NCBI RefSeq assembly: GCF_006716425.1 | Contig: NZ_VFOZ01000001.1 | Coordinates: 4,836,001-4,900,000, forward strand | Origin: Actinoallomurus bryophytorum | GTDB taxonomy: Bacteria > Actinomycetota > Actinomycetes > Streptosporangiales > Streptosporangiaceae | Length of the DNA stretch: 64,000 bases | Reading direction: 5' to 3' | Shown here: positions 42,940-64,000 of the stretch, piece after piece | Position numbering within the stretch: the first letter of the stretch is position 1 | How the letters are laid out: every line of letters starts with the position of its first letter | The notes under the pieces: generated by a model | What the model saw: the letters and a program-made list of their open reading frames with translations, nothing else | Databases searched by the model: none | Told to the model about the DNA's origin: nothing | Translations under genes and position numbers: made by a program

Positions 42940-43110
42940 TCACATGCGATTCTGGAAGCCCGCAGACGCTCCGCTCGTGGCTTTGTCTTCCTCGAGTATG
43001 CGGCTCAGAGCTAGGTCAAGCGGACTCTCAGTGGCTCGGCGCAGCTCGCGAAGAGACCTGCCGGCGAGGTAGGGCAGATCACGAGTGGCCAGTGGGGCAT
43101 CGTCGCTCAT
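42940..43110 (-). CDS. fxsA: FxSxx-COOH-type RiPP precursor with variant core (F-Q-N-R-M)
   Basis: A 56-residue peptide starting MSDDAPLATRDLPYLAGRSL and ending AGFQNRM-COOH. The leader (RDLPYLAGRSLRELRR and SPLDLALSRILEE) matches FxSxx-COOH precursors, which normally end F-x-S-x-x. Here the third core residue is Asn, giving F-x-N-x-x. FxsB-type radical SAM enzymes are thought to link the Phe ring to the third residue as a three-residue cyclophane, and F-x-N motifs are used by related enzymes, so the variant could still be modified. AAAGGGACC precedes ATG 43110. It is divergent from fxsT and 3.3 kb from fxsB. Confidence 0.75.
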   Translation of the reverse strand: MSDDAPLATRDLPYLAGRSLRELRRATESPLDLALSRILEEDKATSGASAGFQNRM

Positions 43111-43413
43111 TTGGTCCCTTTTGTGGTGTCTGGAACTGGTGAGCCTCATGATACCGGGGCCCCACTTAGCGCAGTTCACCGGCGTGGTGGCTACTGGCCC
43201 GCCGCCGAGCCCGCGATCGGTGGAAAGATTTCGGGGTGTCCGATTTTCGTAAAAGGCGGCTTTCGTCCAGCCTCGAAGTGTCTCGCGACTTCGCGGCATA
43301 CCGATTGGGGCGGTAGATCCTACCGGACAAGGAATTGCTGGTCATGGCCCGTATGGCGTATTCGCCTATGATGGCCGCATAATCGAACCAGCGGCCCAGG
43401 CGGAGGTACAGGC
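43111..43413. other. divergent fxsA-fxsT intergenic region
   Basis: A 303-nt region between the divergent precursor and fxsT starts, presumably holding both promoters. Base composition is lower in GC than the flanks. No clear -35/-10 pair, palindrome or extra gene is visible. Confidence 0.5.
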
Positions 43414-45963: not shown

Positions 45964-45971
45964 GGGTGCCG

Positions 45972-46421
45972 TCAGCGGGCGGGTACGGGAATTTCGCCAG
46001 TTCGCCGTCGCCACGATGTCCGGTGTCGTTCGTTCTCGCGCCGCGCCTGGTCCAGCGCCTCCGCCGGGACCGGGTCGTGCTGCCAGCCGAGCAGGGTCGT
46101 GTGCACGCCAGAGACGAACTCATCGCCGGCGTCGTCAGGCGGCCGCTGGCCGGGAGTGTCTCGGCGCCCAGGCAGGCCGACTCGCGCCAGCGGGCGACTC
46201 GCTGTCCGCGTGGCCCGTCGCGCCGCTTGCGCGTTCGCGACGCCGGAAGGCGGTTACTGCCAGAAGGCGTAGACGCCCTGCAGCAGACCGCTCGCCGGAC
46301 GCGGGTCGTCGCGCCAGGTGCGCAGTAGCGCGAGCCGTTGTCCGGCCGCGACAACTGCACGATGTCGAGAATTCCGGTCAGCTTCGTGCTCGCGGGGCAG
46401 CTGGTGGAAGTCGACGCTCAT
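45972..46421 (-). pseudogene. decayed HExxH-type peptide-modification gene of the FxSxx system
   Basis: The start ATG (46421) overlaps the fxsB stop (ATGA) and gives MSVDFHQLPREHEA, the expected opening of the HExxH-motif putative peptide-modification protein that follows FxsB. A later block TWRDDPRPASGLLQGVYAF matches the region after the HExxH site, but the frame stops at 46254. The C-terminal block FVSGVHTTLLGWQHDPVPAE and ARRENERHRTSW lies in another frame and stops at 45972. About 270 residues, including the HExxH motif itself, are missing. At about 450 nt this is a remnant of a gene of more than 1.2 kb. Confidence 0.75.
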
Positions 46422-47629
46422 GCGTTCCCATTCGCGCGTGCGGACAGATCGGTGGTGAGGACGTTCGATACGTGGGAGATCAGCCGGAACAGGTCCGGGC
46501 TGTAGACCGAGGGGTTGGCGAAACCCGAGCCCGGACGGTACCGGTGCGCGTACAGGCCGGCGCCGCAGACGCGGTGTACCGCGCAGCGGCGGCACTCGTC
46601 CGCCAGGGCGAGCTCACCGACCTGCCGCGCCGCGACGAAGGGCAGCATGAGCGCGGTGTCGAAGGGGTCGTGCGCGACGTGCAGGCCGGTCTCGGGCGCA
46701 CCCGAATACGCCGACTTGAGCATGTCCGACTGCTCGATGCTTCCGTCGGTCTCGATGACGATGACCGTTACAGGGGAGAGCCCGATCGCCTCGCTGGCCG
46801 ACGCCCCGCCGAGCAGTAGGTGAATGATCTCGCTGAACAGGCGGACCCGGGTCTCCTGCCGTGGGGCGGCGTACCAGCGGTCGAAGATCTCGATCAGCCA
46901 GTCGGCGTACGGTGTCGCGGCCGAGCCCGGGACGCGGCCGGGCGGTGGCTCGGACCAGTTGCCGTGCGGCAGCAGGAAGTCGATGGCCGGTGGATCGAAC
47001 TCCAGCAGCGCCTCGTACGTCGCGAGCGGCGGGTTGGCCACGTCGATCGCGCACAGCAGCCCGCCGAACAGGTGCCGGAAGCGCGTGGACAGCAGCCGCA
47101 GGCCGGCCGCGACCGCGTCGTAGCTGCTTCCGCCGTGCGGATACCGGCGGTGCCGGTCGTTGGCCACGGCGTCGCCGTCGATGCTGACCCCCACCCGCAC
47201 GTCCAGCTTGTCCAGCAGGTCGAGGTAGGACGCGAGCCGTACGCCGTTGGTCTGCAGGCTCAGCCGGACGTCCACCTCCGGCCCGGCGCTGGAGCGGATC
47301 GTCGTGACGATGTCGGTGATGAGGTCATGGCTCGCGAGCAGTGGCTCGCCGCCGTGCAGGACGACCTCGATCGAGGTGAGGCCATGGTCGCGGGCGTGTT
47401 CCGCTATCCGGGCGGCCGTGTTCGCGACCACGTCGGCCGACATGTGGCGCGGCCGGCCGCGCCAGCTCTGGTCGGCCATCTCGTACATGTAGCAGTAGTC
47501 GCACGCGAGGTCGCAGCGGCTGTGGATCTTGAGGACGAACTCACGGAACGGGGTGGGACTCCAGCCGTCCGCGATCTGTTTCGCGACGTCGAGTGAGGCG
47601 GGCCACTCTGCCGTGGGCTCAGCCGGCAC
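46418..47629 (-). CDS. fxsB: FxsB-family radical SAM/SPASM cyclophane maturase
   Basis: A 403-residue radical SAM enzyme. The 4Fe-4S motif is C-x3-C-x2-C in KIHSRCDLACDYCYMYE (about residues 35-51). The core has VVLHGGEPLL and VGVSIDGDAVANDRHRRYPH. The C-terminal SPASM region holds C-x2-C-x5-C (DECRRCAVHRVCGAG) followed by NPSVYSPDLFRLISHV, the FxsB tail. It would cross-link the C-terminal aromatic motif of the FxsA precursor using SAM-derived radicals. GTG 47629 gives MPAEPTAEW. It is translationally coupled to the decayed HExxH gene. The precursor is 3.3 kb away rather than adjacent. Confidence 0.93.
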   Translation of the reverse strand: MPAEPTAEWPASLDVAKQIADGWSPTPFREFVLKIHSRCDLACDYCYMYEMADQSWRGRPRHMSADVVANTAARIAEHARDHGLTSIEVVLHGGEPLLASHDLITDIVTTIRSSAGPEVDVRLSLQTNGVRLASYLDLLDKLDVRVGVSIDGDAVANDRHRRYPHGGSSYDAVAAGLRLLSTRFRHLFGGLLCAIDVANPPLATYEALLEFDPPAIDFLLPHGNWSEPPPGRVPGSAATPYADWLIEIFDRWYAAPRQETRVRLFSEIIHLLLGGASASEAIGLSPVTVIVIETDGSIEQSDMLKSAYSGAPETGLHVAHDPFDTALMLPFVAARQVGELALADECRRCAVHRVCGAGLYAHRYRPGSGFANPSVYSPDLFRLISHVSNVLTTDLSARANGNA

Positions 47630-49923: not shown

Positions 49924-51507
49924 TCAGTGGATCGGGAGCGGCATCTCGGCAGGGGCCTCGTCGGCGGACGTGGCGTCCGGGGTGCGGCGTGGGAGGAACA
50001 GTGCCGGGATGAACGCCAGGGTGAGCAGGCCCACGGCGTACCAGTAGGTGTGCTGGAACGCGTCCGCCATCGGGCCGGCGATCTTCTGGATGACCTGGGG
50101 CGTGACGTGCTGGGTGGCCGACAGGCCACCACCCGACGGTGTGCCGAGCTTGTCGGCCAGGCTGGTGGCCAGCAGCACCGACATCAGCGCCGTGCCCACG
50201 GACGCCGACACCTGCTGGAAGATGTTCAGCATCGTGCTGGCCCGCGGCACCTCGTCGTGGACCAGCGTCTGGATCGCGGCGGCCATCGTGGGCATCATCG
50301 TCAGGCCCATGCCCAGGCCCATGACGAACAGGATCGATCCGAGGATCCAGTACGACGTGTCCGCCTGGAGGAATCCGGTGAAGGTCGCCACCGAGGCGAT
50401 CACGATGACCAGGCCCAGCAGGACGACCCGGCCCGGGCCGACGCGGTCGGTGAGCTTGCCGCCGATCGGCATCGTGACCATCGCGCCGAAGCCCTGCGGG
50501 GCGAGCAGCAGGCCCGAGGCCAGGGCGCTCTCCTGCCGCACCACCTGGTAGTAGAGCGGGAGCAGGAGCATCGCGCCCATGAACGCGCACATGAACAGCA
50601 CCATCGTGCCCAGCGCCGCGGCGACCGAGCGGCGCTTGAGCAGGCGCAGGTCGATCAGCGGGTTGGTCGCCATCAGTGCGCGGATCGTGAAGAGCACGAC
50701 CAGCACCGCTCCGGTGATCGTGGTGACCAGGACCTCGGTCGAGCTGAAGTCGCTGTGCTGGGCGCCCGTGGCCAGGCCGTAGATCAGCAGGGCGAGGCCG
50801 GGTGACAGCAGCAGGAGGCCGAGGAGGTCGAGACGCTCGCCCGGCTTGGGGGTGTCACGCTTGAGGATCCGGGCGGACAGGAACAGCGCGACGATGCCGA
50901 TCGGCAGGTTGATGAAGAAGATCCAGCGCCACGAGACGTCGTCGACCAGGTAGCCGCCGAGGATCGGGCCGCAGATCGGGCCGAGCAGCATCGGGACGCC
51001 GACGATGCTCATCACCTGGCCGACCCGCTTCGGGCCGGCGGCCTGGGTGAGGATCGTCATGCCGGCCGGCATGATCATCCCGCCGCCCAGGCCCTGCAGG
51101 ACCCGGAAGACGATCAGGGACTCGGCGGACCAGGCCATGCCGGCCAGCGCCGAGCCGCACACGAAGAGTGCGATGGAGATCATGTAGAGACGTTTGGTGC
51201 CGAACCTGGACGAGGCCCAGCCGGTGACCGGGATGACCGTGGCCAGGGCCAGCGTGTAGCCCGTGGCCACCCACTGGATCGTGGACAGCGGGGAGTCGAA
51301 CTCCGTGGCCAGCCGGTTGATGGCGACGTTGACGACCGTCACGTCCAAGATCGACATGATGGCGCCGAGGACGACGACCATGGCGACCGCGAGCACGCCC
51401 CGATCGAGCCCTCCCGATGTCGCCTTCGGTGGGCCGTCCGCCACCTGGGGTGATGAGAGCGCGCTCAATTCCGTGTTCCAATCGTGAGATTTCGCCCGAT
51501 AGTGCAC
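49924..51507 (-). CDS. MFS transporter, DHA2/EmrB-QacA type
   Basis: A 527-residue multidrug-exporter-type MFS protein with about 14 helices. Signature segments are MSILDVTVVNVAINRLATEF (motif D1), WASSRFGTKRLYMISIALF (motif A), RVLQGLGGGMIMPAGMTIL and GPILGGYLVDDVSWRWIFFI (motif C and WRW). It exports drugs or metabolites by proton antiport. The open frame from GTG 51507 adds a polar N-terminal tail; a start closer to the first helix is possible. The family's usual TetR partner is not adjacent. It is divergent from an amidohydrolase gene. Confidence 0.92.
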   Translation of the reverse strand: MHYRAKSHDWNTELSALSSPQVADGPPKATSGGLDRGVLAVAMVVVLGAIMSILDVTVVNVAINRLATEFDSPLSTIQWVATGYTLALATVIPVTGWASSRFGTKRLYMISIALFVCGSALAGMAWSAESLIVFRVLQGLGGGMIMPAGMTILTQAAGPKRVGQVMSIVGVPMLLGPICGPILGGYLVDDVSWRWIFFINLPIGIVALFLSARILKRDTPKPGERLDLLGLLLLSPGLALLIYGLATGAQHSDFSSTEVLVTTITGAVLVVLFTIRALMATNPLIDLRLLKRRSVAAALGTMVLFMCAFMGAMLLLPLYYQVVRQESALASGLLLAPQGFGAMVTMPIGGKLTDRVGPGRVVLLGLVIVIASVATFTGFLQADTSYWILGSILFVMGLGMGLTMMPTMAAAIQTLVHDEVPRASTMLNIFQQVSASVGTALMSVLLATSLADKLGTPSGGGLSATQHVTPQVIQKIAGPMADAFQHTYWYAVGLLTLAFIPALFLPRRTPDATSADEAPAEMPLPIH

Positions 51508-51654: not shown

Positions 51655-53301
51655 ATGGACGCCGCCGACCTGGTCTTCACCGGTGGTCCGGTGCACACCG
51701 CCGACGCCGCGCGTAGCCGCGCCACGGCCGTCGCCGTACGGGGGGACCGGATCGTCGCGGTCGGCCATGACGACGTACGGGAGCTGATCGGGCCGCGCAC
51801 CGAGGTGATCGATCTGGCCGGGCGGCTGCTCGTGCCCGGCTTCCAGGACGCCCACGTCCACCCGGTCGGCGGCGGCATGGAGCTGGGCCAGTGCGACCTC
51901 ACCGGGGCGGTGACCCTGGAGGAGTACCGGGGGCGGATCCGGGCGTACGCCGACGCGAACCCGGGCCTGCCCTGGATCACCGGCGGCGGATGGTCCCTGG
52001 AGGCGTTCCCCGGCGGCACCCCGGTCCGCGAGCAGCTCGACGACCTCGTCCCGGACCGGCCCGCCTACCTCGTCAACCGCGACCACCACGGCGCCTGGGT
52101 CAACACCCGTGCCCTGGAACTCGCCGGGCTGACCGCCGCCACCACGGACCCGGGGGACGGCCGCGTCGAGCGCGACGCGGACGGCCGCCCGGCCGGGATG
52201 CTCCAGGAGGGCGCGATGCGGCTGGTCGGCGACCTCGTGCCGCGTCCTGCCGCCGCCGACCTCGTCGCCGCGCTGCTGCGGGCCCAGGCACTGCTGCACT
52301 CGTACGGCATCACCGCCTGGCAGGACGCCATCGTCGGCGGCAACCCGCTGACCGCCGACGCGACGCCGGCCTACCTCACGGCGGAACGCGAGGGACTGCT
52401 CACCGCACGCGTCGTCGGCGCCCTGTGGTGGGACCGCGAGCGCGGCGCGGAGCAGATCCCCGAGCTGCTCGAACGGCGCGAACGGCTGAGCGGCGGCCGG
52501 ATGCGCGCCACCAGCGTGAAGATCATGCAGGACGGCATCGCGGAGAACCACACCGCCGCGATGCTCGGCCCGTACCTCGACGGGCACGGCCGTGCCTCCG
52601 GCAACTCCGGCATCTCGTTCGTGGCGCCCGAAGCCCTGTGCGACCACGTCACCCGACTCGACGCGCACGGCTTTCAGGTGCACTTCCACGCTCTGGGCGA
52701 CCGTGCGGTACGCGAGGCGCTCGACGCCGTCGAGGCGGCACGGCGCGCCAACGGCTGGACGGGCACCCGGCCCCACCTCGCGCATCTGCAGGTCGTCCAC
52801 CCCGACGACGTGCCGAGGTTCCGCGTGCTCGGTGCGACCGCCAACCTGCAGCCGCTCTGGGCGGTGCACGAGCCGCAGATGGACGAGCTCACCATCCCGT
52901 TCCTGAGCTCTGAGCGCGCGGCACGGCAGTACCCGTTCGGCGACCTGCTCCGGGCGGGCGCCACCCTCGCGGCCGGCAGCGACTGGCCGGTCAGCAGCGC
53001 CGACCCGATCAAGGGTATGCACGTCGCGGTGAACCGAAGGGCCCCCGGCGCCGACGGGAGCACCCCGGCGTTCCTACCGGAACAGCGGCTCGACCTCGGC
53101 ACCGTTCTCGCCGCGTACACCGCGGGCAGCGCGTACGTGAACCATCTCGACGACACCGGCACGATCGAGCCGGGCAAGCTGGCGGACCTGGTGGTCCTCG
53201 ACCGCGATCCGTTCGCCAGCCCGCCTGAGGAGATCGGCGCGACGCGCGTACTCCAGACCTACGTCGGCGGCGACCGCGTCCACGCCGCCCCCGGCGCCTG
53301 A
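51655..53301 (+). CDS. amidohydrolase family protein (YtcJ-like, amidohydrolase 3)
   Basis: A 548-residue metal-dependent hydrolase. The metal-binding H-x-H is in LVPGFQDAHVHPVGGG (about residues 59-74); SVKIMQDGIAENHTAAML, FQVHFHALGDRAVREALDAV (metal His) and TLAAGSDWPVSSADP (catalytic Asp, about 440-454) follow, and the C-terminal beta-sandwich reads GTIEPGKLADLVVLDRDPF. This is the YtcJ-like subgroup, whose substrates are mostly unknown. GAGGAG precedes ATG 51655. It is cytoplasmic, without a signal peptide. A perfect 14-bp hairpin follows the stop. Confidence 0.92.
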   Translation: MDAADLVFTGGPVHTADAARSRATAVAVRGDRIVAVGHDDVRELIGPRTEVIDLAGRLLVPGFQDAHVHPVGGGMELGQCDLTGAVTLEEYRGRIRAYADANPGLPWITGGGWSLEAFPGGTPVREQLDDLVPDRPAYLVNRDHHGAWVNTRALELAGLTAATTDPGDGRVERDADGRPAGMLQEGAMRLVGDLVPRPAAADLVAALLRAQALLHSYGITAWQDAIVGGNPLTADATPAYLTAEREGLLTARVVGALWWDRERGAEQIPELLERRERLSGGRMRATSVKIMQDGIAENHTAAMLGPYLDGHGRASGNSGISFVAPEALCDHVTRLDAHGFQVHFHALGDRAVREALDAVEAARRANGWTGTRPHLAHLQVVHPDDVPRFRVLGATANLQPLWAVHEPQMDELTIPFLSSERAARQYPFGDLLRAGATLAAGSDWPVSSADPIKGMHVAVNRRAPGADGSTPAFLPEQRLDLGTVLAAYTAGSAYVNHLDDTGTIEPGKLADLVVLDRDPFASPPEEIGATRVLQTYVGGDRVHAAPGA

Positions 53302-53416: not shown

Positions 53417-54754
53417 TCACCGGCCGATCGGGTGTCCGGCGCGGCGGAAGACGCCGAGCCGCTCCTCGCCGATCCGGCGGCGGAGCTCGGGGTCCGCGAC
53501 GCCGAGCCCGTCCGACGGCGCGAGGCACCGCACGCCGACCTTGCCGACGTGCTCGTTGAGCTGAACGGCGCGCAGGGCGTCCGGCGCGTCCTCCAGCGCG
53601 TACGTCCTCGACAGCGTCGGCGTGACCATACCCAGCTCGATCAGCCGGTTGGTCTGGACGGCCTCGTGGTAGGTGCAGCCGTGACTGCCGATGATCCGCT
53701 TGACCTTCATCCACAGATGCCGGTTGTCGTACTCGTGCCAGTACCCGGTGCTCGACCCGCAGGTGACGATGGAGCCGCCCCGCGCGGCCAGCCAGACCGA
53801 CGCCGTGAACGTCTCCCGGCCGAGGTAGTCGAAGACGATGTCGGGATCCCGGCCGGCCAGGCCCCGGACCAGGCCGCCGATCGCCCGCCACGCCGCGGGG
53901 TCGCGAAGACCCTGCTCGCCGAGGCCGAGCGTGCTGCGGTCGATGACGTATTCGGCACCGAGCGCGCGGACGAGTTCGGCCTTCTCCTCCGAGCCGACCA
54001 CGCAGACCGGGACCCCGCCGCCGTTGCGCACGAACTGCACCCCGTACCCGCCCAGGCCGCCCGTGGCGCCCCAGATCAGCACCACGTCGCCCTGCTTCAT
54101 CCGCGCGCCGTGCCCGCCGACCAGCATCCGGTACGCCGTCCCGGCGCACAGCGTGTTCGCCGCGGCCTCCTCCCAGGTCAGGCACTCGGGCTTGCGGATG
54201 AGCTGGTTGCCCTTGACGATCGCGAACTCGGCCATGCCGCCGAAGTTGGTCTCATACCCCCAGGCGAGCGGCTCGGCGGCCAGGAGCCCGTCGTCCTGCG
54301 ACGCGGGGTCGCCCGGGTCGATGACCCCGGGGAAGACGACCACGCGGTCGCCGGCCGACCAGTGCCGTACGGCCGCGCCGGTACGGACCACGACGCCGGC
54401 GGCGTCCGAGCCGATGACGTGGTAGGGCAGGTCGTGCCGCGCTCCCCACCGCCCCTCGCGCGCACGGCGGTGCAGGAACGCGAACGTCGGGACCGGCTCG
54501 AAGACCGCCGTCCAGACGCTGTTGAAGTTGACGGACGAGGCCATCACCGCGACGACCACCTCGTCCGGGGCGAGCTCGGGCATCTCGACCGAGCCCACGT
54601 GGACCGAGCGGCGTACGTCCTTGTCGGACTCGCCGGCGAAGATTCCTGTCTCGTCCCTGAGCGTGTAGGCGGCGCGGAACCAGCTGGGCAGCTCGCAGGC
54701 GAGCAGCTCGGCGGGTTCGGCCCCGGCGAGGACCGCTTGTGTCAGATCGGACAT
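53417..54754 (-). CDS. ccr: crotonyl-CoA carboxylase/reductase
   Basis: A 445-residue MDR enzyme of the CCR family. Family-specific segments are MASSVNFNSVWTAVFEPVPT, HVIGSDAAGVVVRTG, WGYETNFGGMAEFAIVKGNQ (the Phe/Glu pair near the CO2 pocket), LIWGATGGLGGYGVQFVRNG (NADPH site) and IGSHGCTYHEAVQTNRLI. CCRs reductively carboxylate crotonyl-CoA or longer 2-enoyl-CoAs to ethylmalonyl- or alkylmalonyl-CoA. The start lies 27 nt after the PKS stop on the same strand behind GGGAAGG, so the two are probably co-transcribed. It would supply the PKS extender unit; no other ethylmalonyl-CoA pathway genes are adjacent. Confidence 0.95.
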   Translation of the reverse strand: MSDLTQAVLAGAEPAELLACELPSWFRAAYTLRDETGIFAGESDKDVRRSVHVGSVEMPELAPDEVVVAVMASSVNFNSVWTAVFEPVPTFAFLHRRAREGRWGARHDLPYHVIGSDAAGVVVRTGAAVRHWSAGDRVVVFPGVIDPGDPASQDDGLLAAEPLAWGYETNFGGMAEFAIVKGNQLIRKPECLTWEEAAANTLCAGTAYRMLVGGHGARMKQGDVVLIWGATGGLGGYGVQFVRNGGGVPVCVVGSEEKAELVRALGAEYVIDRSTLGLGEQGLRDPAAWRAIGGLVRGLAGRDPDIVFDYLGRETFTASVWLAARGGSIVTCGSSTGYWHEYDNRHLWMKVKRIIGSHGCTYHEAVQTNRLIELGMVTPTLSRTYALEDAPDALRAVQLNEHVGKVGVRCLAPSDGLGVADPELRRRIGEERLGVFRRAGHPIGR

Positions 54755-54781
54755 CGATGGCCTTCCCGTATCACTGACTGA

Positions 54782-57700
54782 TCACGCGGGCTCGGTCCGC
54801 GGCGCCCTGAGCACTTCGCCCAGGTGATCGGCGATGATCCGCACCGCCGGTGGATCGAGCAGGTTCAGATGGTGGGCACCCGGGATCGGGACGATCTCCA
54901 GGTCCGGGCACAGCTCGCCGAAGCCGTTCGCCTCGTCGAGGTCGTAGCGCGCGTCGTGGACCGCCCACGGCGTCGGCTCGGTCGAGCGGTAGAGGACGAC
55001 CCGTCCGTAGTAGGGACCCGGCCGGTACCGCTCGAGCGCCCGGGTGTCCTGGTGTGAGGTGAACTGGTGTACCGCCACGGCCGGCGGCAGCTGCTCCATG
55101 ACCGGCTTCGTACGCTCCATGACCAGCGCGAGCTGCTGGTCCTCCCCGAGCGCGGCGAGTTCCTCGAACCCGAGCCTGACCGAGACCCCGTACGTCGAGG
55201 TGAGGTACTCGCCGAAGTCGGCGTAGCGGCGCGCGGTGGTCTCGATGGGGTTCTCCACCTTCTTGGGTACGCCCGCGTCGATCAGCGCGACCAGCTCGAC
55301 GCCGCCGATCCGGCGGGCGATCTCGTAGGCGAGCACACCGCCGAAGGACCAGCCGCCGAGCCGGTACGGCCCCTGGGGCTGGACCGCGCGGATCATCGCG
55401 ATGTACCGGTCGGCGCGCTCCTCGACCTCGGGCGCGTCCCGGAACCGGTCCAGCCCCAGGAACGGCAGGTCCTCGCCGAGCAGCGTCGCGAGCTGCCGGT
55501 AGACCCCGGTGTCGCCACCGGCCGGGTGCAGGCAGAAGAAGGGCGGCAGCTTCGGTTCGGCGGAAGGCCGGTGCGCCGCGCCGGTGATGGGCCGCACGAC
55601 GTGGCGGAGCGCGATCGGGTCGGCGGCGGTCTCCGGCAGGCCGAGCCGGCGGCAGAGGTCGTCCTGCAGATCCTCCAGGCTCCGGCCGCTCAGCAGGTCC
55701 GAGGCGGCCACCGTGACGCCGAGGTCGTGCTCCAGAGTGCTCTTGATCCGGACCGCCACGAGAGAGTCCAGCCCCAGCTCGGTCAGGGGCCGGGAGGGAT
55801 CGGGCGGGAAGCCCAGGACCGCCGAGACCCGGGCCCGTACCCGGCCGTTCACGAGCCGCCGCGCGGTCGGCCCGTCGGCGTCGCGCAGCGCCTCCGGCCC
55901 GGGCCAGTCGTCATCGGCGGGAGCGCCGGCGGCGGCGCCGACCAGCGCGGCGAAGTAGGGCCGGTGCCGGATCTCGGGGAACGCCGCGAGGGCACGGACC
56001 ACGTTGAAACGGATCACCCCGGTGGCGGTCCGGTCATGGGCCAGCAGCGCCTCCAGGGCGTCACCGCCCTCCTCCGGCGTGATCGGGTCCAGCGCGGCGA
56101 CGGTCAGGCCGGCGACGCCGCCGACCTCCGCCCACGGACCCCAGTTGATCGTCCCGCCGGTCAGGCCGTGTGCCCGGCGCCAGTCCACGAACGCGTCCGT
56201 GCGTGCGTTGGCCGCCGCGTACGCCGCCTGGCCCGGTGAGCCCAGCAGCGCGGCGGCCGAGGAGTACACGAGCCACCAGTCCAGGTGGAACCGCCTGGTC
56301 GCCTCGTGCAGCCGGACCGCGCCGTCGACCTTCGGTGACCAGACGCGGCGCAGGTCCTCGGGGCCGAGCTCGTTCACGAGCCGGTCGTCCAGTACCCCGG
56401 CGGCGTGCACGACCCCGCGCAGCCGCAGCCCGTTCCGGCGGGCGGCGGCGACCATCCGCTCGGCCACGCCCGGTGCCGCGATGTCACCGAGCACGATCGC
56501 GACCTCGGTGCCGAACGCGCGGAGCTCCTCGATGGTCTGCTGGGCGGCGGGGCCCGGCCCGGACCGGCCGGAGAGCACCAGGCGCCCGGCCCCGCGCTCG
56601 GCCAGGCGCCGGGCGGCGACCAGGCCGAGCCCTCCGTATCCGCCGCTGATCAGGTACGCGCCTCCGTGGCGTACCGGTTCCAGCACCGGAGTGCCGCCCA
56701 GCCGTACGGTGCGGAGCCGTGACGTGTACCGGACGCCGTCACGCCAGGCGACCTCGGTGTCGGCGTCGCCGCCGAGCAGCTCGGCGAGCGCCGAGGCCGG
56801 ATCGTCCACGTCGAGGAAGGTCGCCCGCAGGGCGGAGTGCTCGAACGCGAGCACACGCGTCAGGGAACGGACGAAGGACTGCCCCGGCTCACCGGCCTCG
56901 CCGTCGCGTACCGCGGCCGTCCGCCGGGTGAGGATCCACAGCCGGTTCACCGGCGGCAGCGTCCGGACCAGCCCGGACAGGGCGAGCAGGAGAGCCTCGT
57001 CGCCCAGTCTGGCGGGCACGACGACCACCACGTCCAGCGAACCGGTCTCGCGGAACTCCTCCTCCAGACGCCGGCGGATGACGTACCGGCCGGCGTCGCC
57101 CAGTCCGTCGGCGATCGCCGCGGCGTCCGCGTCCTCCAGGTCGGAGAGCACCAGCCAGGCCGCGTTCCCGTCCGGCGGCCGCGGCGCCGGCGCCGGTGCC
57201 GGCTCCCAGGCGGCCTCGACGAGCTTGGCCGACAACGGCACCGGCACGGCGCCCGCCGGGATCCGGCGCAGCTCGACGTCTCGTGCCTCCAGCAGCACCG
57301 TTCCGGCCTCGTTCACGAGCCGCAGGGCCGCCACGGCCGAGCCGTCGGCTCTGGGCCGCGGCGTCTCGAACTCACAAGACCCGCCGTCACCCGTCGCGCC
57401 CGGCACCCGCAGCCGCCCGATCGCGACGGTGGTCCACTCGGCGCCGAACGAGGCCAGGCACCGGTCCAGGACGATCGGGTGCACCCGGAAACGCCGGTCA
57501 CCGCGCTCGGCCGGGAGGATCGCGGTGCGGCCGGTGTACGTCCGGCCGGCCGTCTCCCCGGCCACCGAGGTCACGGTCGCGGTGGCGAGCGGTGTCCAGC
57601 CCCCGGCGATGGTACGAGTCTGGATCTCGATCCGGCACTTGGACGTGGCGACGCCCATGGGCGTGCACGTCGTGGTGATCGTCGAATCGTCGTCCAGGGG

Positions 57701-60700
57701 GAGAAGCCGTTCGAGCCGCAGACCGGTCAGGACCGGCGCCTCGGTACCCAGGGCCGCGGCGCCGGCCGCGAGCGCGATCTCGGCGTACGCGGCGGCCGGC
57801 AGCATGGACGTGCCGTGCAGAGTGAGCCAGGGCAGCCGGTCGCCGCCGACGTTCGCGCTCCAGGCGTGCCGGTGGCTCGGCAGTTCGACGTGTGCGCCGA
57901 GCAGCGGGTGATGCCCGGCCGGCCGCGTCGCACGGGCCCGCGTCCAGTGGTGTTCGTGCCGCCAGGGCGGGGACGGGACGTCGCGGACCTGGCCGTCGGC
58001 GGGCGGCTGGACGGGGAGCCCGCTGATCCTGAGGGCGGCGAGCTGCGTGTGGAAGGTGACGGTGTCGTCGGCGGCCTCTTCGCCCTCCGGGCCCCGCCGC
58101 AGAGTCGGCAGGATGAGTGCGTCCTCGGCGGTGTCGGCGAGCGCGTGCGCGAGCAGCGGATGGGCCGAGACCTCCACGAAGGTACGGTGGCCGTCGGCCA
58201 CCGCCGCGCCCACGGCGCCGGCCAGCCGGACCGGGTTCCGCAGGTTCGCCGCCCAGTAGTTCCGGTCGAAGACGGGCACCTGCCAGGGGTCGCCGAGTGT
58301 GGTCGTGTAGAACGCGACGCGGGGCGTCGTGGGGTGGATGTCCTCGAGGCGCTGCCGCAGCGGGTCGAGGAGAGGTTCGACCTGAGGGGAGTGGCCGGCG
58401 CCCTCGGCCCGCACCCGGCGGGCGAGCAGCCCGCGCCGCTCCGCGCGGCCGATCACGGCGGCGATCTGCTCGGCGGCACCGGTGATGACCGTCTGCCGCG
58501 GTGACGCGAGCACGGCCACGTACACGTCCGGGCAGCCGGCGCACAGCTGGGCGATCTCCTCACCCGGCACGCCGAGCACCGCCATGGCACCCCCGCCCGT
58601 GATGCCCGCCAGCAGCTGGGCCCTGACCGTGATGACCTTGACGCCGTCGCGCAAGGACAGGGCACCGGCCATGACCGCGGCCGCGACCTCGCCACTGGAG
58701 TGACCGATGACGGCGGCGGGCTCGACGCCGTACGCCTGCCAGAGCCGCGCCAGCCCGACCTGGACGGCGAACAGCGTGATCATGGTCTCGGCGGGGCCCT
58801 GCTCGCCGGCCCCGTCCAGGGCCTCCCAAACGGAGAAGCCGGCCTCGGCCTGGACCAGGGGCTCCAGCAGCTCGATCGCGGCGCCGAACGCGGGTTCGTC
58901 GGTGAGCAGCGTCCGCGCCATACCCGGCCGCTGCGCGCCGTACCCGGAGAAGACCCATACCGGTGCCCCGTCGCCGGCGGCCACCCCGGTCACGACGGCG
59001 GGGTGTGCCCGGCCCGCCGCGAGTGCCCGCAGGCCCTCGGTGAGAGCGGCGCTCGCACGCCCGACCACGGCGGCCCCGAACCGTCCGCGACCGTAGCGGC
59101 GGGCGAGGGTGTGCGCGGCCTCCGCGGGATCGTCCGGCCCGTCGGCGAGCCGGCCGGCGTACTCGGTGACCCGGTCGGGGGACACGTCGGAGAGCAGGAG
59201 CGTGTGCACCGGATGCGTCGCGCGTACGGTCCACGGCGCGGCGGGCGCCGCCGCGAGGACGACGTGGGCGTTCGCGCCACCGAAGCCGAAGGCGGAGACC
59301 CCGGCCCGGCCGGGCCCAGGCGGCCAGGGCGTCTGCTCGGCAACGACCTTCAGGCCCAGTCCCTCGAAGTCGATGTGCGGGTTCGGCCGGTGGTAGTGCA
59401 GGCTCGGCGGGATGGTCCGGTGCCAGAGCGCGAGCACGGTCTTGATCAGCGAGGCCACTCCCGAGGCGGGCTCCAGGTGCCCCAGGTTGCTCTTGACCGA
59501 GCCGATCAGCAGTGGTGTCGCGCGGTCACGGCCCAGCACCGTCCCGAGCGCGTGCGCCTCGATCGGGTCGCCGAGCAGGGTGCCGGTACCGTGCGCCTCG
59601 ACGTAGTCCGGCGCCTCCAGGCCCGAGTAGACCTCCCGCAGCAGGGCCTCCTGGGCCTCGGGGTTCGGGGCGACGAGTCCGTTGGAACGGCCGTCGGAGT
59701 TGATGCCGGTGTCGCGGATGACGGCGAGGACCCGGTCGCCGTCGCGGTGGGCGTCGCCGAGCCGTTTGAGGACCACCACGCCGCAGCCCTCACTGCGGAC
59801 CATGCCGTTCGCGGAGGCGTCGAACGCCTTGCACCGGCCGTCCGGCGCCGTCCCTCCCGCCTGCTCGAACGTCAGGGTGATCATCGGCGAGAGCAGCACG
59901 TTGACACCGCCGACGATGGCCAGGTCGCTCTCGCCCGCTCCCAGGGACCGTACGGCCAGATGGGTCGCGACCAGGGAGGACGAACACGCGGTGTCGATGC
60001 TCATCGACGGCCCGCGCAGGTCGAGCAGGTACGACAGCCGGTTGGCGGCGATGCTCAGCGCGCCGCCCGTCGTCGTCCAGGGCGACACCTCCGAACCCGG
60101 CGCGGCCGTCAGGAAGGCGTACTCCGGAACCGAGATGCCCGCGAACACGCTTGTACGGCTGCCGTGCAGCGACGCGGGGGCGATGCCCGCGTGCTCGAGC
60201 GCCTCCCAGGCGACCTCCAGCAGCAGTCGCTGCTGCGGGTCCATGGCGTCGGCCTCGTCCGGAGTGATTCCGAAGAACCGCGAGTCGAACCCCGCGACGT
60301 CGTCGAGGAACCCGCCGAGCCGGCTCGCCGGCTCGTACCCGTCCTCCCATCGGTCGTCCGGCACCTCGCGGATCGCGTCTCCGCGTTCGAGCAGAAAATC
60401 CCAGTACGCCCCCGGCCCGGCGATGCCGCCAGGTAAGCGGCAGCCCAGCCCCACGACCGCGATCTCGCAGCGGTCCGGCCCGGACCGCACGGCCGTCGTC
60501 TCGCCGGGAGGTGCGGCCAGCTCACGGGCCAGCGCGGTGATCGTCGGGTACTCGTAGAGCAGGATCGTCGGGAGCGCACGGCCGACGAGATCCTCGAGTT
60601 CGCCCACGATCGCCACCGAGTCGCGTGAGGTCATTCCGAGCTCGGCGAGCGGGCGGTCGGGGTCGATCTCTCCGGCGGCGACGTGGCAGCGTGCGGCGAT

Positions 60701-60763
60701 GCTTTCGGTCAGGAAACGCGCGATCTCGTCGCGTCCGGCGTCATGGCGATCGGCAGTCGGCAT
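54782..60763 (-). CDS. single-module type I PKS: ACP-KS-AT-DH-KR-ACP-TE
   Basis: A 1993-residue polyketide synthase. The N-terminal ACP (8-85) has its Ppant Ser at about 46 (ELGMTSRDS). The KS (98-520) has DTACSSS (Cys260), HGTGT (His391) and KSNLGH (His429). The AT (600-900) has GHSSGE (Ser689) and the specificity box GAGH (788-791). The DH-like region (948-1175) is degenerate. The KR (1360-1545) has SGGYGGLG, LDD (B-type) and YAAAN. The second ACP has ELGLDS (Ser1667), and the TE has GWSFGG (Ser1806) and GAHH. There is no ER. A free N-terminal ACP suits loading by the FAAL gene upstream. ATG 60763 follows GGGGGTAC. The likely product is a 2-alkyl-3-hydroxy fatty acid. Confidence 0.95.
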   Translation of the reverse strand: MPTADRHDAGRDEIARFLTESIAARCHVAAGEIDPDRPLAELGMTSRDSVAIVGELEDLVGRALPTILLYEYPTITALARELAAPPGETTAVRSGPDRCEIAVVGLGCRLPGGIAGPGAYWDFLLERGDAIREVPDDRWEDGYEPASRLGGFLDDVAGFDSRFFGITPDEADAMDPQQRLLLEVAWEALEHAGIAPASLHGSRTSVFAGISVPEYAFLTAAPGSEVSPWTTTGGALSIAANRLSYLLDLRGPSMSIDTACSSSLVATHLAVRSLGAGESDLAIVGGVNVLLSPMITLTFEQAGGTAPDGRCKAFDASANGMVRSEGCGVVVLKRLGDAHRDGDRVLAVIRDTGINSDGRSNGLVAPNPEAQEALLREVYSGLEAPDYVEAHGTGTLLGDPIEAHALGTVLGRDRATPLLIGSVKSNLGHLEPASGVASLIKTVLALWHRTIPPSLHYHRPNPHIDFEGLGLKVVAEQTPWPPGPGRAGVSAFGFGGANAHVVLAAAPAAPWTVRATHPVHTLLLSDVSPDRVTEYAGRLADGPDDPAEAAHTLARRYGRGRFGAAVVGRASAALTEGLRALAAGRAHPAVVTGVAAGDGAPVWVFSGYGAQRPGMARTLLTDEPAFGAAIELLEPLVQAEAGFSVWEALDGAGEQGPAETMITLFAVQVGLARLWQAYGVEPAAVIGHSSGEVAAAVMAGALSLRDGVKVITVRAQLLAGITGGGAMAVLGVPGEEIAQLCAGCPDVYVAVLASPRQTVITGAAEQIAAVIGRAERRGLLARRVRAEGAGHSPQVEPLLDPLRQRLEDIHPTTPRVAFYTTTLGDPWQVPVFDRNYWAANLRNPVRLAGAVGAAVADGHRTFVEVSAHPLLAHALADTAEDALILPTLRRGPEGEEAADDTVTFHTQLAALRISGLPVQPPADGQVRDVPSPPWRHEHHWTRARATRPAGHHPLLGAHVELPSHRHAWSANVGGDRLPWLTLHGTSMLPAAAYAEIALAAGAAALGTEAPVLTGLRLERLLPLDDDSTITTTCTPMGVATSKCRIEIQTRTIAGGWTPLATATVTSVAGETAGRTYTGRTAILPAERGDRRFRVHPIVLDRCLASFGAEWTTVAIGRLRVPGATGDGGSCEFETPRPRADGSAVAALRLVNEAGTVLLEARDVELRRIPAGAVPVPLSAKLVEAAWEPAPAPAPRPPDGNAAWLVLSDLEDADAAAIADGLGDAGRYVIRRRLEEEFRETGSLDVVVVVPARLGDEALLLALSGLVRTLPPVNRLWILTRRTAAVRDGEAGEPGQSFVRSLTRVLAFEHSALRATFLDVDDPASALAELLGGDADTEVAWRDGVRYTSRLRTVRLGGTPVLEPVRHGGAYLISGGYGGLGLVAARRLAERGAGRLVLSGRSGPGPAAQQTIEELRAFGTEVAIVLGDIAAPGVAERMVAAARRNGLRLRGVVHAAGVLDDRLVNELGPEDLRRVWSPKVDGAVRLHEATRRFHLDWWLVYSSAAALLGSPGQAAYAAANARTDAFVDWRRAHGLTGGTINWGPWAEVGGVAGLTVAALDPITPEEGGDALEALLAHDRTATGVIRFNVVRALAAFPEIRHRPYFAALVGAAAGAPADDDWPGPEALRDADGPTARRLVNGRVRARVSAVLGFPPDPSRPLTELGLDSLVAVRIKSTLEHDLGVTVAASDLLSGRSLEDLQDDLCRRLGLPETAADPIALRHVVRPITGAAHRPSAEPKLPPFFCLHPAGGDTGVYRQLATLLGEDLPFLGLDRFRDAPEVEERADRYIAMIRAVQPQGPYRLGGWSFGGVLAYEIARRIGGVELVALIDAGVPKKVENPIETTARRYADFGEYLTSTYGVSVRLGFEELAALGEDQQLALVMERTKPVMEQLPPAVAVHQFTSHQDTRALERYRPGPYYGRVVLYRSTEPTPWAVHDARYDLDEANGFGELCPDLEIVPIPGAHHLNLLDPPAVRIIADHLGEVLRAPRTEPA

Positions 60764-61028
60764 CTTCGTACCCCCCACGGCGGGGCCCGGCATGACGGGG
60801 GCCCCTGAAAGCGGTTCCACGCGGAGCCGCGACCGGTGGCCGGCTGACGCACGGGCCGCTCACACCAGGGTGGTGAGCCGCTACCGCCTACCTTGTGGGG
60901 GGAAGGGAGCTGAGGTTCCATGCGTGCCGGGTGTTGTCACATCGGACACGGCTTGCGTTCGTTCGATCGCCCTCAGTAGAGCACCGTGCGGGAGACGCCG
61001 TCTATTACCTACCAGTAGGGATTTGCGA
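60764..61028. promoter_or_regulatory. PKS upstream region with a 12-bp palindrome
   Basis: This non-coding stretch precedes the PKS and follows the FAAL terminator, so it should contain the PKS promoter on the minus strand. CCTAC-CA-GTAGG (61008-61019) is a perfect palindrome and a candidate operator. I could not place a convincing -35/-10 pair. Confidence 0.4.
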
Positions 61029-61059
61029 ACCCCCGGCCGCACCAGGTGGGGCCGGGGGT
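61029..61059 (-). terminator. stem-loop terminator after the FAAL gene
   Basis: ACCCCCGGCC (61029-61038) and GGCCGGGGGT (61050-61059) form a perfect 10-bp stem with an 11-nt loop, beginning 5 nt after the acyl-AMP ligase stop. It implies that FAAL and PKS are separate transcripts. Confidence 0.75.
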
Positions 61060-61064
61060 CACGT

Positions 61065-62819
61065 TTACGCCATGGGGAGGTCACCGGACAGGTAGCGCTC
61101 CCGGCACGCGCTACGGGCCACCTTGCCGCTGGAGGTACGGGGTACGCCCCCGGGCCGCACGAGGACCAGGTCGTGCAGCGGAACGTCGTGGACGGCGGCG
61201 ACCGCGGTGCGGATGACCCGGCGCACCTCGTCCGGATCGGGCGCGTCGGCCCCGCCGGTCTGGGCGCGGCGCGACCGCTCCGCGACGACGACGAGGTGTT
61301 CGGTATCCGGCCCGGGGATCGAGAACGCGGCCACGTGGTCCGGGCGGATGGCCGGGTGCGCCTCCTGCACGGTGACCTCGATGTCCTGCGGGAAGTGGTT
61401 GCGGCCGTCGACGATGATCAGGTCCTTGAGCCGGCCGGTGACGTACAGCTCACCCTCGTGGACCGCGCCGAGGTCGCCGGTGCGCAGCCACGGCCCGGCC
61501 GGAACGCCGGTGGCCGGTCCGGAGAGCCATCCGCCGAAGGTCGCGGAGCTGTGCTCGGGCTTGCGCCAGTATCCGCGCGCGACGTTCGGCCCGCGTACCC
61601 AGATCTCGCCGACACGGTCGTCGGGCAGCTCACAGCAGCTGTCCGGGTCGACGACCGCGACGTACTGCCCGGTCGGCGTCCCGCACGAGACCAGGCCCGC
61701 GACGCGCTCGTCGCCCGAGGCGGCGAGCCGCAGGACGCCTTCGGACAGCCTCTGGGGATCGACGGTGATCACCTTCGGCGGGGTGTCGCCGTGCGCGGCG
61801 GTGACGAAGACGGTCGCCTCGGCGAGCCCGTAGCAGGGCGTCGACGCCTCGGGCCGCAGCCCGGCCGCGGCGAAGGTGGTGGAGAAACGGTGCAGCGTGC
61901 TCTCGCGTACGGGTTCGGCGCCGTTGAGACACCAGCGCAGCCCCCGCAGGTCCAGCCCCTCCGCGGCGGCGGAACGGCCGAGGGAGTACTCGTAGGCGAA
62001 GTTGGGTGCCGCGGTGAAGACCTCCTCGTTGCGGTGGACGGAGATCATCGCCAGCCAGCGGGAGGGGTTGCGGATGAACGACATCGGGTCGGTGAACCGC
62101 GCCTGCACGCCGTGCACGATCGGCGCCGCGAGGGTGGCGACCAGGCCCATGTCGTGGAAGAGCGGCAGCCAGCTGACGATCGCCACCGGGCGCCGCGCGC
62201 CGACCCCGAAGTGCGCCCACAGCTGGCGCGCGTTGACCGTGATGTTGCGATGGCTGATCTGCACACCGGCCGGGTCGCGGGTCGAGCCGGAGGTGTACTG
62301 GAGGTAGGCGAGCTCGTCGGGCGGCACCGGCTCCGGCTCCCAGTCCGTCGGCTCGATCGTGTCGGCCGTCACCAGGTCGCGCGGCGGCGGGGCGCCGTCG
62401 AGGAAGGCCTGGACGGCGGGCAGCGCCTCGGTGACGGTCACCACGATCGCCGGGTCGGCGTCGGTGTACGCGCGGATCAGGCGTTCGTGCTGGCCGGGCA
62501 GCTCGGGGGAGAACAGCGGGACCGCGATGACACGTGCGTAGAAGGCGCCGAGCATCGTGGTCAGGTAGTCCAGGCCCGACGGCAGCAGCAGCGCCACGCG
62601 GTCGCCGGGATTCGCCGACCGGCGCAGCCGCGCCGCCGTCCAGCACGCTCGGCGGTGCACCTCGGACCAGGTCAGCGTCGTGCTCCGCCCCTCGCGAACG
62701 GTGCCGTAGTCCACGAAGGTGTAGGCGGGTGTGTCCGGCTTTCGCTCGGCCCACCGGGTGACTCGCTCGATCAGGGTCTCCCCGTCCGAGAATTCGCCAC
62801 AACGATCCTCCAGCGCCAT
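61065..62819 (-). CDS. fatty acyl-AMP ligase (FAAL)
   Basis: A 584-residue member of the adenylate-forming family. The P-loop is LQYTSGSTRDPAGVQISHRN (about residues 174-193), with SWLPLFHDMGLVATL (the FAAL/FACL HDMGL motif), WCLNGAEPV, CYGLAEAT and the hinge TGRLKDLIIVDGRNHFPQDI (about 490-509). FAALs activate fatty acids as acyl-adenylates and hand them to ACP domains of PKSs instead of CoA, as FadD32 does for Pks13. The start ATG 62819 is preceded by GGGGGTG; GTG 62825 is the alternative. It lies upstream of the PKS with the N-terminal ACP and is divergent from the Ag85-like gene. Confidence 0.94.
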   Translation of the reverse strand: MALEDRCGEFSDGETLIERVTRWAERKPDTPAYTFVDYGTVREGRSTTLTWSEVHRRACWTAARLRRSANPGDRVALLLPSGLDYLTTMLGAFYARVIAVPLFSPELPGQHERLIRAYTDADPAIVVTVTEALPAVQAFLDGAPPPRDLVTADTIEPTDWEPEPVPPDELAYLQYTSGSTRDPAGVQISHRNITVNARQLWAHFGVGARRPVAIVSWLPLFHDMGLVATLAAPIVHGVQARFTDPMSFIRNPSRWLAMISVHRNEEVFTAAPNFAYEYSLGRSAAAEGLDLRGLRWCLNGAEPVRESTLHRFSTTFAAAGLRPEASTPCYGLAEATVFVTAAHGDTPPKVITVDPQRLSEGVLRLAASGDERVAGLVSCGTPTGQYVAVVDPDSCCELPDDRVGEIWVRGPNVARGYWRKPEHSSATFGGWLSGPATGVPAGPWLRTGDLGAVHEGELYVTGRLKDLIIVDGRNHFPQDIEVTVQEAHPAIRPDHVAAFSIPGPDTEHLVVVAERSRRAQTGGADAPDPDEVRRVIRTAVAAVHDVPLHDLVLVRPGGVPRTSSGKVARSACRERYLSGDLPMA

Positions 62820-63101
62820 GCACACCCCCGTGTTACTTGCGCGACTTCGCTATGAAATGACGATCAGTATCTGGCCTCTGATTTTGTGTCGCGGCTGATG
62901 GCCCTCCGAGGATAAGCGGGCGGTGACGTCCCCGGAAGATACATTCCTCATCCTCGTTGTTGGGTACCTAATTGTCCGTTCATTATTCCGATTAACTGTG
63001 GCAAAACACACCTATTCGGTCTGGCCGGTTCTGTGGTTTCGCCATTTCACGATACGGTTCTCTGCCTTGTGGTGAAACTGACTAAGGTAATGGAGTCGAA
63101 T
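62820..63101. promoter_or_regulatory. divergent promoter region of FAAL and Ag85-like genes
   Basis: A 282-nt region between the divergent starts, clearly lower in GC than its surroundings around 62950-63060, as expected for a regulated divergent promoter. I saw no strong palindrome or consensus hexamer pair that I can defend. Confidence 0.45.
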
Positions 63102-64000
63102 GTGCGTGCCTTGTGTGGCCGGTTTTTCATGCGCGGATTCGCAAGTGTGGGTGTCGTTATCATCGTGATGGCCGTGGTCTCCGGCGCCGCGGGCCGTGCG
63201 CTCGCCGCCGTACCGGCCGCCACGGCCGACGGCGCGAGGGTCACGGGGGAGCGGTGGCTCGGCGGTCGCGAGGTCGACCTGACGGTGTCCTCGCCCGCAC
63301 TGGGCACGACGGCGCCGGTCCGCGTGCTCCTGCCGCGCGGCTGGTCACGGTCGGCGACCCGCACCTGGCCGGTCGTCTACGCCTACCACGGAGGCCGCGA
63401 CACATACGTCTCCTGGACACGAAGTACGGACATCGCCAGCCTCGCCGCCGAATACGGGGTCATGGTCGTCATGCCCGACACCGGCTATTCCGGCTGGTTC
63501 ACCGATTGGCGCAACCACGGCGCTTTCGGCCCCCCGAAATGGGAGACATTCCATACGCGCGAGCTGACGCGGCTGATGGAACGCGACTATCACGCGAGCA
63601 CCGCGCGCGCCGCGATGGGCATCTCCTCGAGTGGTTACGGCGCGATCAAGTATGCGGCCCGCCATCCGGGCATGTTCCGGTACGCGGTCTCACTCAGCGG
63701 AATACTCCACCTCACCCAGACGGGTATCCCGCCCTTGATCCTGCTGGAGGCGAGCGAACGCTACGACCCCTTCCGTATCTGGGGCGACCCGACTCTCGAC
63801 CGCGCGAACTGGGAGGCGAACGACCCTTATGTCCAGGCCCCTCATCTCCGCGGGACGGGGATGTACATCGCCAGCGGCCTGACGGGCCGCCCGGGCCCGT
63901 ACGACCACCCGGCGCCGGGCAACGACGGCATCGAGGCCCAGGAGATCCTCTGCGGCGCCACGACGGTGTCCTTCGTCAAGCGGCTGAAGCGGCTGGGCAT
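63102..64000 (+). CDS. secreted antigen-85-like esterase/mycolyltransferase family protein, 3' end beyond window
   Basis: About 299 codons are present, open at the right edge. GTG 63102 has GGAG 6 nt upstream; ATG 63090 is an alternative. The N-terminus (VGVVIIVMAVVSGAAGRALA) is a signal peptide. The alpha/beta-hydrolase core follows antigen 85: VVYAYHGGRDTYVSW, PKWETFHTRELTRLM (Ag85: YKWETFLTSEL), AAMGISSSGYGAIKYAARHP with nucleophile Ser near 175 (Ag85: GLSMAG), YAVSLSGILH, and IWGDPTLDRANWEANDP (Ag85: MWGPSSDPAWERNDP). Ag85 proteins transfer mycolates to trehalose or arabinogalactan. Divergence from the FAAL gene suggests that it handles the PKS product outside the membrane. The catalytic His lies beyond the window. 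Confidence 0.88.
   Translation, partial: MRALCGRFFMRGFASVGVVIIVMAVVSGAAGRALAAVPAATADGARVTGERWLGGREVDLTVSSPALGTTAPVRVLLPRGWSRSATRTWPVVYAYHGGRDTYVSWTRSTDIASLAAEYGVMVVMPDTGYSGWFTDWRNHGAFGPPKWETFHTRELTRLMERDYHASTARAAMGISSSGYGAIKYAARHPGMFRYAVSLSGILHLTQTGIPPLILLEASERYDPFRIWGDPTLDRANWEANDPYVQAPHLRGTGMYIASGLTGRPGPYDHPAPGNDGIEAQEILCGATTVSFVKRLKRLG

Follow-up and report, generated by a model that had tools for sequence, protein, structure and literature searches.

A candidate mycolate-type condensation locus with a CinF-type carboxylase/reductase in Actinoallomurus bryophytorum and its counterparts outside the Mycobacteriales

The window analysed here, a stretch of 64,000 nucleotides (G000:C1:4836001-4900000) from the 9.47-Mb genome of Actinoallomurus bryophytorum, carries at its end a small group of genes whose products probably make a branched fatty acid resembling a mycolic acid and link it to an extracellular acceptor. 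On the reverse strand lie, in a row, the genes for a fatty acyl-AMP ligase (FAAL), a one-module polyketide synthase (PKS) and an enzyme of the crotonyl-CoA carboxylase/reductase type (CCR); the gene of a secreted protein related to Ag85 and other mycoloyltransferases is divergent from the FAAL gene and crosses the end of the window (Table 1). Pfam and NCBIfam scans agree on the families of these genes, and the four gene kinds named by a first-pass annotation, made from the letters and reading frames, are indeed real. To our knowledge, the group to which this bacterium belongs is not known for mycolic acids.

Table 1. Genes and domains of the locus, in window coordinates
Feature	Coordinates	Strand	Basis or remark
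CCR, 445 aa, CinF-type pocket (GSHG, LCAGTAYRML)	53417..54754	-	TIGR01751, PDB match, pocket residues
One-module PKS, 2003 aa, ACP-KS-AT-DH(degenerate)-KR-ACP-TE	54782..60793	-	Pfam
Alternative PKS start, GTG	60820	-	gives 2012-aa reading
N-terminal ACP (approximate limits)	60536..60748	-	motif GMTSRDSV
KS domain, DTACSS	59393..60466	-	Pfam, motif
AT domain, GHSSGE and GAGH	58025..58960	-	Pfam, motifs
DH domain, degenerate	57248..57910	-	Pfam; aa 971-1191 of 2012-aa reading
KR domain, GGYGGLG, LDD, S-Y-N intact	56126..56662	-	Pfam, motifs
C-terminal ACP	55667..55843	-	Pfam
TE domain, GGWSFGG	54821..55543	-	Pfam, motif
FAAL, 584 aa	61065..62819	-	AMP-binding and FAAL matches, tree
Secreted Ag85/mycoloyltransferase-like protein	63090..64000 (start approximate)	+	runs to genome position 4900133, 133 bases past the window

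The FAAL has an AMP-binding domain in Pfam (218 bits). In NCBIfam it scores highest with FAAL subfamilies, without reaching the cut-off of any, and in the PDB with the FadD32-type 5d6j (441 bits). By these matches it is nearer to fatty acyl-AMP ligases than to CoA ligases; its predicted role is to activate a fatty acid as the adenylate and transfer it to the N-terminal acyl carrier protein (ACP) of the PKS. In its own genome no other match of its kind was found, with 1346 bits versus 72.5 for the next match. In the FAAL tree (all trees were built by a quick method), one side of a branch with support 95 holds 25 FAALs from outside the Mycobacteriales that are accompanied by a PKS and an Ag85 relative; a further FAAL and six rows not assigned to a group are there too. 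The window FAAL is on this side, as sister (support 100) to that of G155, a genome of another genus.

In the PKS, Pfam recognizes ketosynthase (KS), acyltransferase (AT), dehydratase (DH), ketoreductase (KR) and thioesterase (TE) domains and two PP-binding stretches. The layout first proposed, ACP-KS-AT-KR-ACP-TE, thus stands for every domain it named and fails as a complete description, having overlooked the degenerate DH. The catalytic His of this domain is gone through a 3-residue gap and its second motif reads DRCLA, with neither Q nor H, by which an active DH is ruled out. The KR is intact in its nucleotide motif, its LDD and its S-Y-N residues (the PKS of L057 has LAD for LDD), and because the KR is intact and the DH His is lost, the 3-hydroxyl should form and stay in the product. 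Among 19 KR-bearing PKSs compared, the DH His is absent in seven (window, L057, L070, L071, L106, L108 and L109) and kept in the 12 from Pseudonocardiaceae, Actinopolyspora and Frankia; where the DH is intact, the product may be a different one. The PKSs of Pseudonocardiaceae that retain this His (L092, L101, L107, L115, L125, L137 and others) may, for instance, yield a 2-alkyl-2-enoate. By eye, the Actinomadura-type PKSs L070:12668-19348 and L071:5344-11796 have an additional ACP-like stretch ahead of the TE, and its phosphopantetheine Ser is seemingly replaced.

Two further motifs of this PKS recall Pks13. The N-terminal ACP reads GMTSRDSV, compared with G[LM][SA]SRDA[VI] in genuine Pks13, and the AT carries GAGH, of the GA[G/S]H form found in Pks13, where GAGH or GASH occurs in 20 of 20 Mycobacteriales loci. 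This is the position at which methylmalonyl-specific ATs have YASH and malonyl-specific ATs HAFH (PMC6164871; PMC numbers, here and below, refer to excerpts of the papers). A comparable small-residue motif, MPAAAH, is reported for AntD, which accepts many alkylmalonyl units (PMC6117356). The best PDB match of the window PKS is MAS (957 bits), and in the KS-AT tree its sister is the PKS of G155 (support 99).

The CCR scored 474.9 bits with TIGR01751 (cut-off 378.55) and is the only CCR found in its own genome (1016.5 bits versus 53.8 bits, at 34% identity, for the next match). Its best PDB match is the octenoyl-CoA carboxylase/reductase CinF, with 556 bits as opposed to 488 for a crotonyl CCR, and it shares with CinF both GSHG, with the Gly that presumably determines chain length in CinF, and LCAGTAYRML, the corresponding residues being GSHF and LVNSTAYRQL in two crotonyl CCRs (3hzz and 6owe). 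All 11 FAAL-linked CCRs that were read have GSHG, and the five readable at this site among eight unlinked control CCRs have GSHF (two), GSHV (two) and GSHG (one). The V350G chain-length mutant of AntE, a protein that lies outside the present alignment, has been described (PMC6117356). The window CCR is accordingly of the CinF type in its pocket, and it is predicted to form a long-chain alkylmalonyl-CoA. A second CCR of the GSHG type, L164 (G155:C95:300000-301400), lies ~50 kb from the G155 counterpart of the window locus.

The Ag85-like protein, whose N-terminus resembles a signal peptide by eye, is the top PF00756 match of its own genome (107.5 bits). A profile of 13 Ag85-like sequences places it nearer to mycoloyltransferases than to other esterases, with E-values of 4.7e-73 for PS1/MytA, 7.7e-43 for Cmt1 and 6.6e-36 for Ag85A and 2.8e-26 for the best other esterase, and S176, E282 and H313, which we take by analogy to be the catalytic Ser-Glu-His triad, are invariant across the 13 sequences. 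In the Ag85 tree, which includes only two of five paralogues from the window's own genome, the window protein clusters with that of G155 and the orphan of G007 (support 99), and a branch supported at 92 has 21 Mycobacteriales rows on one side. In two genomes of the window's genus an orphan orthologue (~65% identity) is found beside an SDR gene (L167:11807-12805 and L168:7998-8996), and the stretches around it gave no FAAL or PKS match. No PF04602 arabinosyltransferase was found in the window's own genome, in a search whose controls were positive only in C. glutamicum; the arabinogalactan genes of a mycolic-acid envelope were hence not seen there, and because of this the acceptor is probably not arabinogalactan.

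The locus is conserved, and more widespread than could be known from the window alone. Among 341 genomes of the family (E limits 1e-60 for FAAL, 1e-50 for the Ag85-like protein and 1e-100 for CCR), matches were obtained in 196, 143 and 144 genomes, respectively. In G155 a single locus holds, in the order FAAL-PKS-CCR-MFS-Ag85, a FAAL (70% identity), a PKS (67%), a CCR (73%), an MFS transporter and an Ag85 relative (67%), and since the same four genes recur together in another genus, the cluster is neither chance nor an assembly artefact. Other arrangements were seen as well: loci of the Actinomadura/Spirillospora type read FAAL-MMPL-Ag85, with a glycosyltransferase (GT) of the UGT/GT28 type and an MFS gene on the opposite strand, followed by PKS-CCR (L070 groups with A. 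physcomitrii in the KS-AT tree, support 100); the Nonomuraea-type G185 has Ag85, a PKS with KR, and CCR; and in G007, of the window's own genus, FAAL-MMPL-Ag85 and PKS-CCR are ~50 kb apart. Linkage was counted among the matches listed (150 rows each for FAAL and Ag85 and, for CCR, all but one of the 117 rows with at least 60% identity, the exception being from G176, at 63%, for which no FAAL row was listed): a FAAL row lies no farther than 30 kb from 75 of the 116 CCR rows, where about one was expected, and an Ag85 row no farther than 15 kb from 36 of the 150 FAAL rows, where 0.8 was expected. At least 22 genomes hold all three within 30 kb. These counts and the recurrence in G155 rule out chance clustering, and they dispose of the concern, raised with the first-pass annotation, that the Ag85-like gene might never be linked. 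The first-pass annotation knew of no described locus with this combination; the gene set is not confined to the window and belongs to a wide family of loci, and we found no published description of such loci outside the Mycobacteriales in the open-access literature, most subscription journals not being covered.

How the alpha-branch is supplied could be compared across the named FAAL loci, which are the best 80 of at least 585 confirmed. In 52 of them the sequence retrieved holds a FAAL, a PKS and an Ag85 relative; 20 of these are from Mycobacteriales and 32 from elsewhere. An AccD-type carboxylase (the query, PF01039, 606 bits) adjoins the Pks13 position in all 20 of the former; the other 32 divide into 18 with an AccD4-type carboxylase, six with a CCR, all from one Streptomyces group, and eight with neither. 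Over the 52 loci, therefore, 38 have AccD only, six CCR only, eight neither and none both, against 4.4 loci with both expected under independence (38 x 6 / 52, kinship ignored). In the Streptosporangiaceae stretches read, CCR is present and AccD was not found, and neither the window nor the 20 kb beyond gave a match at threshold for the AccD4-type carboxylase of mycolate loci. Which AT motif a locus has goes with its supply gene: every one of the 44 loci that possess AccD or CCR reads [GA]A[GS]H (GAGH in the 18 AccD loci outside Mycobacteriales; four GAGH and two AAGH with CCR; 11 GAGH and nine GASH in Mycobacteriales), and none of the six readable loci with neither gene and an uncut PKS has it (VASH, VAGH, VAGH, TAGH, VAAH and AAAH). 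As for the other two such loci, L081 has GAGH and stops ahead of the expected place of CCR, and in L085 the PKS is cut before the motif. As none of the 52 loci has both AccD and CCR, and loci with either one share an AT motif, the CCR appears to take the place of AccD4.

The Streptomyces loci themselves show both arrangements. In the operons L095, L096, L102, L111, L113 and L120 (10001 to ~19500) FAAL, a PKS of Pks13 layout lacking KR, an Ag85-like gene and CCR are found, with no AccD within their span. In ten Streptomyces-type loci (L094, L098, L100, L103, L110, L112, L116, L117, L119 and L144) an AccD-type carboxylase gene lies directly ahead of FAAL, PKS, Ag85-like, PucR-type regulator and cutinase-relative genes; these, by sequence, hold the gene kinds of a mycolate locus. 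Several loci of Streptomyces, Kibdelosporangium and Amycolatopsis additionally contain cutinase relatives (PF01083).

Bacteria that make mycolates use FadD32 to charge the N-terminal ACP of Pks13, AccD4 to carboxylate the alpha-branch and Ag85 for mycolate transfer (PMC13324839). We consider it reasonably probable that the window encodes a pathway of this mycolate-type condensation outside the Mycobacteriales, whose 2-alkyl-3-hydroxy acid is given by the Ag85-like enzyme to an acceptor other than arabinogalactan. Once the FAAL had primed the N-terminal ACP, the CCR would reductively carboxylate a medium- or long-chain 2-enoyl-CoA to alkylmalonyl-CoA, as its pocket residues and the mutual exclusion of CCR and AccD suggest, and in so doing would take over the job of AccD4. 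The AT would accept this bulky unit through the motif shared with genuine Pks13, the KS would join the two chains, the KR would set the 3-hydroxyl, which the dead DH would leave in place, and the TE would free the acid or hand it to a carrier sugar. After export, the secreted enzyme would move the acyl group to its extracellular acceptor. We infer each of these reactions, the chain lengths, the product and the acceptor from what was observed directly, namely the genes, domains, motifs and conserved linkage. The chain of steps sketched in the first-pass annotation is thus supported, at the level of sequence, by the Pks13-like ACP and AT motifs, the intact KR beside a DH without its His, the CinF-type pocket and the mycoloyltransferase-type Ag85 relative.

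A number of observations weigh against such a reading. With the FadD32 model NF038339 (cut-off 975 bits) the window FAAL reaches 530.7 bits, and with the Pks13 model NF040607 (cut-off 2100 bits) the PKS reaches 1108.3; the deep branch order of the KS-AT clades is unresolved. Among the matches listed, 41 of 116 CCR rows have no FAAL row within 30 kb, to which contig ends contribute, and among the five readable unlinked CCRs GSHG occurs in one (L164) and LCAGTAYRML in two. For export there is no evident candidate: no MMPL or GT gene was found at the window locus in the stretches read, the MFS protein nearby is only 28% identical to that of G155, and the closest MMPL of the genome (52% identity) lies at C1:669480, away from the locus, has three stops in its reading and shows no pathway gene in the surrounding 20 kb, so that we rejected it as a pathway member. 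Nor do the enzymes belong to the classical families. FadD32 membership is ruled out by the score above and by the tree, where FadD32 rows lie on the opposite side of the branch from the window FAAL, and Pks13 membership by its score and by the KS-AT tree, where seven Mycobacteriales Pks13 rows form a clade (support 100) without the window; the window PKS also departs from the Pks13 layout, ACP-KS-AT-ACP-TE without DH or KR, in carrying both. By its sequence, then, the locus works like a mycolate pathway, yet it is not a member of the Pks13 or FadD32 family.

Other explanations deserve consideration. FAAL, PKS and CCR might form one pathway with the divergent Ag85-like gene as an unrelated neighbour or a general esterase, as its place on the opposite strand, the frequency of Ag85 paralogues in the family (143 of 341 genomes) and the orthologues of G007 and G008 that lie away from any FAAL at 65-67% identity would suggest; the Ag85 clade of the window can, in fact, exist apart from FAAL. 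However, both of these genomes also have another, linked copy, and the linkage in G155 and many other loci, along with a profile that is mycoloyltransferase-like and not esterase-like, makes this account unlikely. The product could also be a secreted glycolipid of the glucolypsin kind and no envelope lipid, that is, a 2-alkyl-3-hydroxy acid glycosylated and esterified to the 6-OH of a sugar, with the Ag85-like protein as sugar esterase or transferase. Such a product has a precedent in Nocardia and Streptomyces (PMC4365757), and the UGT/GT28-type glycosyltransferase of the Actinomadura-type loci would fit it; the window locus and G155, however, show no GT in the stretches read, no glucolypsin gene cluster was seen for comparison, and the CCR pocket and AT motif indicate a branch longer than methyl, all of which leaves this quite unlikely in our view. 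That the CCR delivers ethylmalonyl-CoA, the product then being a 2-ethyl-3-hydroxy acid made by an ordinary one-module polyketide pathway, agrees with the TIGR01751 score, but it is opposed by GAGH in the AT and by a pocket (GSHG/LCAG) like that of CinF and unlike the GSHF/LVNS of crotonyl CCRs; on these pocket residues we set the ethylmalonyl extender aside, and we keep this alternative only as a very improbable one.

Compared with known systems, the mycolate-type pathway that we favour stands closest to the accD4-pks13-fadD32 locus with its Ag85 genes, with which it shares, in one neighbourhood, a FAAL, a PKS with N-terminal ACP and TE, and Ag85 relatives, as well as the GA[G/S]H motif and, in sister loci, an AccD-type supply gene; it differs in having CCR for AccD and DH-KR within the PKS, in lying outside the Pks13 and FadD32 clades and in a genome without the arabinosyltransferase. 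PKSs of the PpsA/MAS type with FadD23 or FadD28 are likewise FAAL-loaded and KR-bearing, and MAS is the best PDB match noted above, but their AT motif is VASH or VAPH (L128, L130), their FAALs form a separate clade and no linked CCR or Ag85 was seen. The alkylmalonyl PKSs of cinnabaramide, antimycin and reveromycin have CinF-type CCRs, of which the window CCR is nearest CinF, and a small-residue AT motif (cf. AntD, PMC6117356); they are assembly lines, however, and the PKS of the window is one FAAL-primed module, partnered by an Ag85-like protein. Glucolypsin, in which two glucosides of a 2-methyl-3-hydroxy iso-C18 acid are joined by ester links through glucose C6, is chemically nearest in its ester link between a 2-alkyl-3-hydroxy acid and a sugar (PMC4365757); we know of no genes for it, and the window locus has no GT.

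Of the genes next to the row, the MFS gene (49924-51507) was rejected as a pathway gene for want of conserved linkage, the MFS of G155 being a different one, and the amidohydrolase gene (51655-53301) because the G155 locus has no amidohydrolase match. Farther away, within 40841-47629, an FxsB-type radical SAM-like protein (46418-47629) and, near it, two large NB-ARC/TPR-like genes were noted by eye. Genes in the stretches read were called with a simple codon-based caller, which overlooked at least one, that of the Ag85-like protein in L057.

We would also put forward, as a tentative proposal with somewhat less than even prospects, that actinomycetes not regarded as mycolate makers hold an overlooked and widespread family of mycolate-type pathways, namely FAAL-PKS-Ag85 cassettes supplied by a CinF-type CCR or by an AccD4-type carboxylase. 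The Mycobacteriales locus would be one branch of this family and the window locus another, with CCR in place of AccD4 and the reductase inside the synthase. In the excerpts cited, treatment of Pks13 clusters is limited to Nocardia (PMC7413640), mycolic acids are said to occur in Corynebacteriales alone, and how the mycomembrane arose is called a mystery (PMC6194230). Related loci in Streptomyces, Amycolatopsis, Actinomadura and Nonomuraea make the origin of mycolic acids testable by lipid analysis and phylogeny, and this in harmless organisms. Such a family would show that the alpha-branch can be supplied by two interchangeable routes, carboxylation or reductive carboxylation, and would provide Ag85 relatives with an acceptor other than arabinogalactan.

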